This document shows, piece by piece, positions 28,898 to 35,694 of a DNA stretch of 64,000 bases (position 1 is its first letter; every line of letters starts with the position of its first letter). The notes beneath the pieces were generated by a model, which was not told the origin of the DNA, did no database searches, and saw only the letters and a program-made list of their open reading frames with translations. Source of the DNA: Candidatus Woesearchaeota archaeon (GTDB lineage Archaea; Nanobdellota; Nanobdellia; Woesearchaeales; JABGXB01). A program made the translations under genes and the position numbers. Where the stretch lies: contig JABGXB010000002.1 of NCBI GenBank assembly GCA_018675975.1, positions 1-64,000 on the forward strand, read 5' to 3'.

Positions 28898-31117
28898 GTG
28901 GAAAGTAAATTATCAGCACCTTTTTCAATATATTTTCTTCATGGTGCATCATGCTCGGGAAAAAGTACATTACAAACCATTTTAATAGAAGATATTGCTA
29001 ACAAATTAGGTTCCAAATTATATAAACAATTTTTAGAATTATCTAATATCAAATTTACTGATAGATTAAGAAGAAAAAGTGAAATTGAAAAAAAATATAT
29101 TATGCAAAAAAATATAGTTGATGATGAAACATTTACCAGATTAAATGATTCTGAAGAATTTTTTATGACATATTCTTATAATGGTAAAAGGTATGGATTT
29201 TCAAGTTCTGCCCTAGAAGAACAAATTAATTTTTCACTTCAAAATCCAAATTCACAGTTTCAATATCCCATTTTTTTTGATAATAGTTCTCCAAATTTAC
29301 CAGTTATTACAAATAAAAAATTAATTGATGAAATTAATGACAAATTATCAGTTCATGAATTAGATCTGAAATTTGATATTAAAAAAATTTTAGTTTTTTC
29401 ATCACTTGATACAACTCGAACTAAATTTTCATATAGATTTAATGAATCTAAAGGTATTGAAGAATATCTAATAGAACGAGCAGATAATGACTTAGAAGAA
29501 AATTTATATTTTTTAAATAAATTATTAAAATATACTCATTTTAGTTGTCCATTTTTATTTAGAGATAGAGCTAAAATGGAAGAAAAACAAGCGGATGATG
29601 AAAGATTAATTAGTTGTTTAGACTATTCAAAAAAAATAGAATTTTTACAGGCAGGATACTCAAGAGGAAATTTTGATTCTATGTCCATAATGGAATCGCT
29701 TAATTTAATTACTGATAAAAATGAAGAAAAATTTTCAATAATAGGTCTTATGGAAGTATTAAAAGAATATTTTAGTCCTGCTAGTTTATATAAAAAACAT
29801 TTAATTAAATCAACAAAAAATTCTAAACATAAAAACACTATTGGAAAATATAGTGCAAATTTAAAAATTTATTATAAAAAAATTGCAGAATCATTTTGTA
29901 AAAAAATTAAAAAACAATATGAAACATTAAAAAAAAAAAAAACATTAAATCCACAAAAAAATGTTTTTTTTGGTAAGAAAAAAAAAAAATTAGAAAACAA
30001 AATTAAAGAAGAAAAATATGATTGTCTTGAAAAATTAATAAATAATTATTTTGACCCAGAATTTGACGTTAATAATATTAATGATAATCTTAAAAGAATA
30101 TACAATGATTTTATTATTAATTATGCAACATTAGATTTTAAAAGTAATTTTTTTGGAAGTAGACAAACACAAGAATATTTATCTTTAATAGAAAAAGAAA
30201 AACTTTTAAAATATAGTTTAGATGTTTATAAAAATTTAGGAATGGAATCAAAAATTATTAAAGATTTGCAAACATTATTAGATGACACTTATGAAAGAAA
30301 ACAAATTGTGGAAGGCAAGTTAAATAGTATTTTTGATATTGATCGATATGAAATAAGTGAAAAAATAGTTATTGATCTTAAAGAAAAATTAGTTCAAATA
30401 AGAGATGAGTTTGATTCTATTTTTAATTATAATAAAAAAAATAGAAAAAGTAATATTAGTATGAAAGATATTCAAATAGTAATCCGAAATATATCTCAAT
30501 TATATTCAGAGCAGTATATGAGATATAAAAGACATTCGAATCCTGAATTTAATGAACCTGAATATAGATTAAAAGGAAAAGAAAATATTTCTTTAGAAAG
30601 GTGGCTTTTAAAAAGAAGAATTAAAAAAAAATCCAAAAAAAAATATACAAATAAATCCAAAATTAAAAATATTAGGACTAGAGATCTTTTACCATTTTTA
30701 AAATATTTTGAAACATTTAGAGAAAATGAAATAGTTGAACTTCCAATCTTAATAGAAAATAGAGATAAAGTTTATTCAGACATATTAACTGTTTTTAAAG
30801 AAATCATAAGTCAAAGTGATCTTAGAAAATCCGAATCAGTTCATTTAATAAAATCATATACTGAAAATATTTTAAATGTATTATTTAGTTCAACTACAAA
30901 TACTAAACAATCTTCAGTGAATAAATCTATATTAACACAAAATATTTCATTTATTGAAGACTTAAATAAAATACTAAAAAATTATTCTAAATTAAAACTT
31001 TGTCAAATAGAAAATGAAAATTCAGATGAAAAAGAAAGTATTTTATTAGAAACATTATTGAATAAATTATATTTGAAAAATCCATTTAATTTTACTTCTG
31101 AAAGAATTATTGCATAA
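28898..31117 (+). CDS. Large P-loop-containing protein of unknown function (GTG start)
   Basis: YFLHGASCSGKSTLQTILIEDI; long charged, Lys-rich remainder. Confidence 0.65.
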   Translation: MESKLSAPFSIYFLHGASCSGKSTLQTILIEDIANKLGSKLYKQFLELSNIKFTDRLRRKSEIEKKYIMQKNIVDDETFTRLNDSEEFFMTYSYNGKRYGFSSSALEEQINFSLQNPNSQFQYPIFFDNSSPNLPVITNKKLIDEINDKLSVHELDLKFDIKKILVFSSLDTTRTKFSYRFNESKGIEEYLIERADNDLEENLYFLNKLLKYTHFSCPFLFRDRAKMEEKQADDERLISCLDYSKKIEFLQAGYSRGNFDSMSIMESLNLITDKNEEKFSIIGLMEVLKEYFSPASLYKKHLIKSTKNSKHKNTIGKYSANLKIYYKKIAESFCKKIKKQYETLKKKKTLNPQKNVFFGKKKKKLENKIKEEKYDCLEKLINNYFDPEFDVNNINDNLKRIYNDFIINYATLDFKSNFFGSRQTQEYLSLIEKEKLLKYSLDVYKNLGMESKIIKDLQTLLDDTYERKQIVEGKLNSIFDIDRYEISEKIVIDLKEKLVQIRDEFDSIFNYNKKNRKSNISMKDIQIVIRNISQLYSEQYMRYKRHSNPEFNEPEYRLKGKENISLERWLLKRRIKKKSKKKYTNKSKIKNIRTRDLLPFLKYFETFRENEIVELPILIENRDKVYSDILTVFKEIISQSDLRKSESVHLIKSYTENILNVLFSSTTNTKQSSVNKSILTQNISFIEDLNKILKNYSKLKLCQIENENSDEKESILLETLLNKLYLKNPFNFTSERIIA

Positions 31118-31445: not shown

Positions 31446-32711
31446 GTGGTAAATAACTTTCTTATGAATAATTTGAATGATTTATTAAATTCTAAACCTA
31501 AAAGTAATCAAGATATTAGTGAAAAAGGTCAAAAACTAAAAAAAGAATTGATAGAACAAGCAAAAAAAGTAGAAAAAAAAAATACTAAAAAAACTACAAA
31601 GAAAACTAGTAAGAAGACTACTAAAAAAAAAACAGCTAAAAAAAAGAAAAATGAATTATTAAATCAAACCCATGATTATTCAAATATTAATAATAATGAA
31701 TATAGAAATCATTTAATTGATTATATTAATAAAAATTCAGATTTGGGTTTTGACTCTATATCAATTCTAGAACATTTAGTTGAATATGGAGTAGACTATA
31801 ATTATGCAAATGAATTAATTAATAATGTTAATTTAAGTAAAAATATATCAGAAACTAAAATTGTTGAAAAAGAAGAAAGAGAAATAATTTCAAAATCTCA
31901 AAATAATTTTAGATTTTTTATTGAACTATTTATAGTATTTATTATTATTACAATTTTATCATTAATGAGCAATGGAACAATCTATATCGTTGCCATGAGC
32001 TTTTTCCCTACAATATTAAATTTATGTTTAATACATTATTATTTTAAAAATAATAAAAATTATTTATTATCAATACCAATTTATTTAGTAATAATTTCAT
32101 TTTTTTCAATATTATTTAATTATGTACAAATTGGAGAAATATTTTTAAGAAATATTATTGATATAAAGGCAATTGCAATATATAATATAATATTAACTTT
32201 TATTTTTCAATTAGTTGAATTTGAAAATTTAAATATAATATTTGCAAATTTATCAAAACATTTCAATTTTCATAAAAAAGAAAATGTAAAAGATCTTAAA
32301 ATAACATTAAATAAAAATATAAGTATATTAAAAAAGAAAATATTAAAAATAAATCAATTAATTGAATCTACATACAAAATTAATAAAAAAGAATTAAATA
32401 ATGTATTAATTGATTTAAAATATTTAAAAAAATTAGAAAATATAGACTATAAAAATTTAATATTAAAAGCACATAATTATTTTGAAATATCTGATTTATT
32501 AGAAAAAGAAATCAAAAAATTAGAAAATGATGAAAAATTTTTTAATTTAAATAAAAAAGCAGGACACTTAAAAAGAGATAAATCAGGTAGATATTCTATT
32601 CTTAGTATCATAATGGTAAACAATCATGATATTGATTTAAAAAAATTATGGGAAGAAATTTTTTTCATAATAGATACTATTAAAGGAGAATTATATAATA
32701 ATAGTATTTAA
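31446..32711 (+). CDS. Membrane protein with Lys/Thr-rich H1-like N-terminal tail (start may be the ATG at 31464)
   Basis: KKVEKKNTKKTTKKTSKKTTKKKTAKKKKNE; four or more hydrophobic segments mid-protein. Confidence 0.65.
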   Translation: MVNNFLMNNLNDLLNSKPKSNQDISEKGQKLKKELIEQAKKVEKKNTKKTTKKTSKKTTKKKTAKKKKNELLNQTHDYSNINNNEYRNHLIDYINKNSDLGFDSISILEHLVEYGVDYNYANELINNVNLSKNISETKIVEKEEREIISKSQNNFRFFIELFIVFIIITILSLMSNGTIYIVAMSFFPTILNLCLIHYYFKNNKNYLLSIPIYLVIISFFSILFNYVQIGEIFLRNIIDIKAIAIYNIILTFIFQLVEFENLNIIFANLSKHFNFHKKENVKDLKITLNKNISILKKKILKINQLIESTYKINKKELNNVLIDLKYLKKLENIDYKNLILKAHNYFEISDLLEKEIKKLENDEKFFNLNKKAGHLKRDKSGRYSILSIIMVNNHDIDLKKLWEEIFFIIDTIKGELYNNSI

Positions 32712-33404: not shown

Positions 33405-34481
33405 ATGCCCTCATTTAATATGGTTCATAAAAATTTAAATCCAGAAGATATTATATCTGAAAAATTTGAAAAAATTCTAGGTCAAAACGAAGCTAAAATT
33501 CAATTAAAGTCTGCTATATTAATGGACAGACATGTAATCTTGGTAGGTCCTCCAGGAGTTGGTAAAACAAGTTTTGCAAAAAATGTTGCAGAATTATTAA
33601 AATCAATTAAAGCAGTTGATTGTTCTTATCATTGCAATCCAGAAAAACCTATTTGTCCTGAATGTTTACATAAAATAAAAAATAATGAAAAATTAGAAAT
33701 AGTTGAATTAAATGGTAAAGATAGATTCATTAGGGTACAAGGTTCACCAGATTTAACTGTAGAAGATTTAATTGGTGATATTGATCCAATTAAGGCATTA
33801 GAATATGGACCATTATCCATGCAAGCATTTACACCAGGTAAGATATTTAAAGCAAATAGAGGATTATTATTTTTTGATGAAGTTAATAGATGTCCTGAAA
33901 AATTACAAAATGCATTATTACAAATATTAGAAGAAGGAAAAGCAACTATTGGAAATCATGATGTAGATATTGATGCAAGCTTTATTTTTATTGGAACAAT
34001 GAATCCTACTGACTTTGCTGGAACACAATCATTATCTGAAGTTTTTTTAGATAGAACAGATTTAATATATGTAAATTATCCAGAAACTAGAGAAATTGAA
34101 ATGCAAATCTTAGATGAAAATACTCAAGAATTAGATTCAATTGAAATGCCAGAAAAAATATCTTATTCAATTGTTGAATTTATACAAAAATTAAGACAAA
34201 GTGATAAATTAGAAAAACAACCAAGTGTAAGAGCAAGTATTGGATTACATGAGAGAAGTCGATCATATGCAAAATTATGTAATTGTAATAAAGTTGAAAT
34301 GAAACATGTTGAGTTTGTAATACCTTCTGTTTTAGAACATAGAATTAAATTAAAACCAAATTATAAATTTTTAATGAAGCCAAAAGATTTTTTAAAAAAA
34401 GAATTTAATGACTTTAAAAAAGAAGGAAATAATTATGCAGGAATAGCACCTAAAAGAGAGAAGAGTTCTGAAGTTCCCTGA
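33405..34481 (+). CDS. AAA+ ATPase, MoxR/Mg-chelatase I-type
   Basis: HVILVGPPGVGKTSFAKNVAELL; GLLFFDEVNRCPEKLQNALLQILEEG; GTMNPTDFAGTQSLSEVFLDRTDL. Confidence 0.9.
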   Translation: MPSFNMVHKNLNPEDIISEKFEKILGQNEAKIQLKSAILMDRHVILVGPPGVGKTSFAKNVAELLKSIKAVDCSYHCNPEKPICPECLHKIKNNEKLEIVELNGKDRFIRVQGSPDLTVEDLIGDIDPIKALEYGPLSMQAFTPGKIFKANRGLLFFDEVNRCPEKLQNALLQILEEGKATIGNHDVDIDASFIFIGTMNPTDFAGTQSLSEVFLDRTDLIYVNYPETREIEMQILDENTQELDSIEMPEKISYSIVEFIQKLRQSDKLEKQPSVRASIGLHERSRSYAKLCNCNKVEMKHVEFVIPSVLEHRIKLKPNYKFLMKPKDFLKKEFNDFKKEGNNYAGIAPKREKSSEVP

Positions 34482-35694
34482 AAATAATGATTCTAAATTA
34501 GAGAAAGATAAACACGAAAGACAAACAACAACTAGTGATTTAACTAAAGGATCTGAACAAGAAAATGAAACATTTAGTGATTCTGATAAAAAAGGTCTTG
34601 CAAAGAGTTTAATCGATGATGATGGAGGTTCTTTAGAAGATGCAACATTAATTAATAGTGCAATAAATCAAGGTATGGGGGCTTTCACACCTAATATGAT
34701 GTTTGAAAAAATGGTTAGTAATTTTAGAAATTCTAAAAATATATATGGAGAAAGTATGATTAGGGCAACTACTGGCTATGACAGTGAATATATTGATAAA
34801 AATATTAAATATCCAGAATTTCAAAGAGAATTAGAAAAAAGAATGAAGGATAAAAAAGATGAATTTAAGAAAAAGAAATTAGTTGATAGTAAAGGAAATT
34901 ATACACAAAAAGCAACTGAGTTAGCAGTTTTATCTATGTATGCAACAGAGTTAGATAATTTAGAAGCAATTGATAATATCCATGGAAAAAAATTCACAAG
35001 AAAAATGGATAAGTATGGAGAAAAACAAGAAATTACAAATTATAAAAAGGGTGCGAGATTTAGAGATATTGCAATAAGACAATCTATTAAAAATCTAATT
35101 AGACATAATCAAAAAAAATTAAGTCTTGAAAATATGAAAATGTATGAAAGACAATCTAAAGGAGTCTTAAATATAATTTATGCTATTGATACAAGTAGTT
35201 CTATGAAAGGTAAGAAGTTAGAATCAACAAAAAAGGCAGGATTAGCACTTGCGTATAAAGCAATATCAAATAAAGATAAAGTTGGATTAATTGCATTTGC
35301 AGAAAATATTATTACAAGTATTGAACCTACAGATGATTTTTCAAAAATTGTAAATGGTTTGACATTATTAAAACCAAAAGATGAAACTGATTTTGAAAAA
35401 GTTATTAATGAAGCAATGAGATTATTTCCAGAAGGAGATGAATTAAAACATTTAGTTATTATAACAGATGCAATGCCTACAGCAGGAAATGATCCCGTTC
35501 AAGACACATTACAGGCAATTTCAATGGCAAGAGCTGCAAATATTACTATTAGTATAGTTGGAATGCAATTAGATGAACAAGGTGAAAGTTTAGCTCAAAA
35601 AATAGTTCAAATCAGTGAAGGAAAATTATACAAAGTTCTTGAAACTGAAAATTTAAATCAAATTGTATTGCAAGATTATTATGCATATGAATAA
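34482..35694 (+). CDS. VWA-domain protein (chelatase D-like); listed ATG at 34675, frame open and coding-like back to 34447
   Basis: IIYAIDTSSSMKGKKLESTKKAGLAL MIDAS motif (DxSxS); ITDAMPTAG; upstream in-frame ENNDSKLEKDKHERQTTTSDLTKGSEQENETFSDSDKKGLAKSLIDDDGGSLEDATLINSAINQG. Confidence 0.82.

Follow-up and report, generated by a model that had tools for sequence, protein, structure and literature searches.

How is the VWA domain of this locus translated, given that the 5' end of its reading frame contains no ATG, GTG or TTG? The window, that is, the whole stretch of 64,000 nucleotides analysed from a Candidatus Woesearchaeota archaeon, carries on its forward strand a frame-0 ORF (33405 to 34481) encoding a MoxR/ChlI-type AAA+ ATPase of 358 aa (PF07726, 73 bits; PF07728, 70 bits; PF01078, 62.5 bits), for which ChlI 6l8d is the closest solved structure. 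The 3' end of this ORF reads GAA GTT CCC TGA, with CCC as the last sense codon (34476 to 34478) and TGA as the stop (34479 to 34481). The +1 frame of the same strand is open from 34447 to 35694 (415 codons). Where it overlaps the end of the AAA ORF (34447 to 34479), it includes no ATG, GTG or TTG, and a CTG stands at 34468 (-11 relative to the stop). The part from 34480 to 35694 (404 aa plus stop) encodes a polar linker, a helical segment and a VWA domain, as judged from PF13519/PF00092 and the alignment. The first ATG, GTG or TTG is the ATG at 34675 to 34677; since it lies inside a conserved coding block of the alignment (...INQG-MGAFTP), it is unlikely to be the VWA start. An earlier note on the window had described the ORF end, the open frame and the CTG, and had proposed a programmed +1 frameshift at CCC-UGA (34476 to 34481) that gives both AAA and AAA-VWA. 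The description was confirmed in the sequence, and the proposal is supported by comparative data, beyond the window sequence alone. We consider it very probable that one gene yields an AAA ATPase and, by programmed +1 frameshifting at the stop codon, a fusion of this ATPase with the metal-binding VWA domain; the two would act in a ChlI/ChlD-like complex.

The domain matches bear on the relation between the two halves. TIGR02442 models a cobaltochelatase as a single chain of 641 positions; the AAA part matches its positions 6-193 and the VWA part its positions 358-639, indicating that elsewhere the two halves form one chain. The scores (85 and 60 bits) are far under the NCBIfam cut-off of 779. 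Upstream of the AAA gene, the window holds two large ORFs (28898 to 31117, 739 aa; 31446 to 32711, 421 aa) without a Pfam match.

We gathered 178 non-redundant AAA-VWA junctions from Woesearchaeota and sister orders. The VWA protein was found in 128 of the 147 genomes searched in the order, the window genome (1.03 Mb, 3 contigs) included, and the named relatives are mostly Candidatus Woesearchaeota. The VWA frame was +1 relative to AAA at 175 of the 178 junctions and in the other frame at three, and no in-frame fusion occurred. After four distant loci (L212-L215) had been set aside, 174 junctions remained as the close-relative set, and 172 of them, from independent assemblies, showed the +1 relation. 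In the window, GC content is 24.5% and CCC makes up 0.9 per 1000 codons. Given this rarity and the same layout in 172 of 174 close relatives, the CCC-UGA with an open +1 frame is not a chance arrangement.

The sequence around the junction was compared among the 172 relatives with the +1 relation. First, the last AAA codon was CUU in 45, CCC in 44, CGG in 35, GGG in 21, CCG in 13, ACC in seven, CUC in three and another codon in four. The set CCC/CUU/CGG/GGG/CCG/ACC/CUC thus accounted for 168 of 172 junctions versus 43 of 595 other ORF ends (7.2%; Fisher p about 1e-121, a value inflated by kinship). A tree built from the VWA proteins gave about 59 changes of the shift codon, nearly always within the set; this count is not inflated by kinship, and common descent alone therefore does not explain the pattern. 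The earlier note had suggested checking homologues for a shift-prone codon, a stop and an open +1 frame, and this combination was present in 168 of the 172. In addition, all three stop codons occurred after the shift codon, and the base directly 3' of the stop was C in 136 of 172 relatives versus 97 of 595 other ORF ends; it is A in the window. The commonest form was CUU-UGA (35 loci), followed by C in every case. Finally, pairing with the anti-SD AUCACCUCC, found at the 16S tail of the window genome itself, peaked sharply at positions -12 to -7, 3 nt upstream of the shift codon. About 80% of relatives reached -5 kcal/mol or better at this peak, versus 1-11% elsewhere in the profile, and the motif there was GGUGAU or GGUGGU. 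The same +1 cassette also occurs in genomes from further orders of the class (L206, L207, L210, L211). Downstream RNA structure was absent in the window (z 0.32) and did not exceed the control in 86 relatives, and no Rfam family matched at the junction.

The CCC sites differed from the others. Pairing of -5 kcal/mol or better was found at 66% of CCC sites versus 86-100% of CUU, CGG, GGG and CCG sites, and C followed the stop at 36% of CCC sites versus 94% of the remaining sites. The window is the extreme CCC site, with neither element: the corresponding position (34467 to 34472) reads a degenerate UCUGAA with an energy of -3.2 kcal/mol. The earlier note had suggested a purine-rich stretch of the window as a possible SD stimulator. 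Such a stimulator is present in relatives at -12 to -7; the stretch itself pairs at only -3.1 to -3.2 kcal/mol with the genome's own anti-SD, and we rejected it as an SD, the SD having been lost in the window.

The tRNA set is of interest for this reduced site. A search of the window genome gave 31 tRNA matches even at E = 10, with UGG as the only Pro tRNA; CCC must therefore be decoded through a poor match there. In yeasts, +1 shifting is known to arise where the P-site tRNA preceding a stop codon is a weak match (PMC5009743). With SD and C lost, this UGG-CCC match probably does the work in the window species. A missing cognate tRNA was rejected as a general rule: it fits the window and perhaps G165 (shift codon CGG, no Arg CCG tRNA found), and it fails for G014, whose shift codon is CCG and which has tRNA-Pro(CGG). 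Counting against the shift reading, CGG and CCG are expected to re-pair poorly in the +1 frame. The tRNA set of the window genome is reduced in other respects, with a single Ala tRNA (UGC), and introns were observed in tRNA-Ile(UAU), tRNA-Trp and tRNA-Tyr. An odd AT-rich tRNA-like match (G000:C1:182192-182259) was not called by ARAGORN.

The VWA part might instead be a separate overlapping gene that starts at the non-AUG codon at -11 and is coupled to AAA translation, a reading to which we assign little probability. Among the 172 relatives, 123 have GTG and 10 have ATG as codon -11, the window has CTG there, and with an in-frame GTG at so many junctions initiation may occur at individual loci. 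However, this GTG belongs to the GGUGAU motif itself. Where it has been lost (GCG, GGG, GAG, AGG or AAG at -11), the shift codon persists, often together with the SD-like sequence. Upstream of -11, SD sequences are not enriched (12% versus 9% in the control). At L060, a +1-frame stop lies between -11 and the shift codon, directly before the latter, and at 14 loci, including the window, no start codon is present from -60 to +15. Moreover, a start at -11 accounts for neither the shift-codon set, nor the adjacent stop, nor the 3' C. On this evidence, the GTG start is refuted at many loci.

The SD before the AAA stop could also recruit ribosomes for a restart downstream after termination, as SD sequences near ORF ends are common in polycistronic mRNAs (PMC5009743). 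We find such reinitiation very hard to credit: a VWA-frame start stands at a usable distance, 4-14 nt past the SD, in only seven of 172 relatives, and at most of the 14 loci without a nearby start the first one lies at least 85 nt downstream (196 in the window), where the coding sequence is conserved. We give next to no probability to a pseudogene or to an uninterrupted gene broken by an indel from sequencing or assembly, a common kind of error that the earlier note had raised: the same +1 relation recurs in 172 close relatives from independent assemblies, within a conserved cassette of differing codons, and both motifs, Walker A (GPPGVGKT) and MIDAS (DTSSS), are preserved in the window. For the family, the comparisons already refute an indel. 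Neither a simple indel nor a clear VWA start without an open upstream frame, the outcomes named beforehand as damaging to the frameshift, was the rule among relatives.

We therefore return to programmed +1 frameshifting. A single mRNA would encode the ChlI/MoxR-like AAA+ ATPase and then, in the +1 frame, the linker and the VWA domain. Termination at UGA would release the AAA protein alone (358 aa). When the stop is recognised slowly in the A site, the P-site peptidyl-tRNA may slip by one base in the +1 direction, from CCC to CCU in the window, and reading in the +1 frame would then give a ChlD-like AAA-VWA fusion of 762 aa. In most relatives, pairing of GGUGAU or GGUGGU with the 16S tail, 3 nt upstream, and the C after the stop would drive the shift; in the window species, the weak match of Pro UGG on CCC would take over. 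The two products may assemble as a ChlI/ChlD-like ATPase complex, in a ratio set by the shift. The frame relation, shift codon, SD geometry, stop context and tRNA set are read directly from the sequences. From the comparative evidence we infer the occurrence of the shift, its efficiency and the complex.

A few junctions depart from the cassette. At L025 (G010, a one-contig genome), the AAA end reads TTG GGG TAA and VWA is in the -1 frame; GGGG-UAA would possibly fit a -1 slip. At L223, the cassette GGUGAU-UCA-CUC-UAG-C is intact, but a stop closes the AAA frame before it is reached, as an indel further upstream would cause. The distant L212, L213 and L214 (G195, G315 and G211) share a different conserved overlap (UUUCGGAGU; TTTCGGAGT) with VWA in +1, possibly a separate +1 site of the UUU-CGG type; no ATG, GTG or TTG is near the junction of L212. 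At L215 (G150, one contig of 490885 bases), an A9 run lies at the AAA end (actaaaaaaaaactaTAA), VWA is in -1 and ATG, GTG and TTG are again absent near the junction, so that a -1 frameshift like that of methanogen fs-chlD is a candidate here. Frameshifting of the AAA-VWA gene may thus be wider than the +1 cassette, with a mechanism that varies by lineage.

All 147 genomes of the order lacked a match to the ChlH/CobN large subunit (PF02514), with positive controls, and we rejected a link to cobalamin or chlorophyll on this ground. Together with the TIGR02442 scores given above, this means that the pair does not qualify as a Mg- or Co-chelatase. A calcineurin-like metallophosphoesterase gene was often observed on the same strand, mostly just 3' of VWA (L099 and 33 other named loci). 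It is not adjacent to the pair in the window, and the neighbourhood of the named loci is otherwise variable; we set it aside as a guide to function.

A 2021 review of archaeal recoding describes only -1 frameshifting as demonstrated, with one suspected +1 case, which is viral (PMC8211752), and our search of the literature on frameshifting with DPANN or Woesearchaeota returned nothing relevant. An RF2-type +1 signal in archaea, in a chlD-like gene of an order without the chelatase large subunit, seems new; +1 fs-chlD cases are mentioned without detail in the fs-chlD literature (PMC3711429, PMC9227772). If true, the window archaeon and at least 170 relatives would provide, as far as our search shows, the first well-supported case of +1 frameshifting in archaeal cellular genes. 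We think it likely, with less assurance than for the frameshift itself, that archaeal ribosomes perform an SD-assisted, RF2-type +1 shift in a cellular gene, that this is ancestral to Woesearchaeota and sister orders and arose independently of the bacterial RF2 signal, that all three stops and the poorly re-pairing CGG and CCG are usable, and that the shift sets the AAA/AAA-VWA ratio of a chelatase-like machine in organisms without chelatase. The 172 natural variants form a comparative set that bears on which codons shift, on how SD pairing makes up for a weaker codon (at CCC sites the SD is weaker and C less frequent) and on whether archaeal ribosomes use anti-SD pairing in elongation. In these archaea, VWA has probably been annotated wrongly as a gene of its own, and the results suggest an AAA-VWA machine that has no chelatase as its partner.

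Three known systems invite comparison. Antizyme (UCC-UGA) and the yeast +1 site of Kluyveromyces waltii (CCG-UGA-C) also place the shift codon before UGA, with a weakly matched P-site tRNA where the cognate is missing (PMC5009743). Unlike the archaeal family, they are eukaryotic, lack an SD and encode non-homologous proteins, and polyamine sensing is known only on their side. Frameshifted chlD (fs-chlD) of bacteria and methanogens, mostly -1, has a homologous AAA/VWA architecture with the halves in overlapping frames; its termination product resembles the small subunit and its fusion the medium subunit, and it too occurs in genomes without the large subunit (PMC3711429, PMC9227772). The published archaeal cases, however, shift -1 on A_AAA_AAR, whereas the window family would shift +1 with an SD and a stop codon. 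The closest likeness in the signal is to bacterial RF2, in which the 3-nt SD spacing and the C after the stop are published features of the +1 shift (PMC5009743). E. coli prfB carries AGGGGG-TAT-CTT-TGA-C, the same geometry as the archaeal cassette in direction, SD position, adjacent stop and following C, and CUU-UGA is the commonest archaeal form too. In contrast to RF2, the archaeal cassette uses seven main shift codons and all three stops, its products are AAA+ and VWA proteins and not a release factor, and its termination product would be a full ATPase instead of a short discarded peptide; of the three elements of the RF2 signal, two (SD and C) are missing from the window copy. On this comparison, the archaeal site is best described as one that would work like an RF2 site in a gene that is not an RF2 gene.
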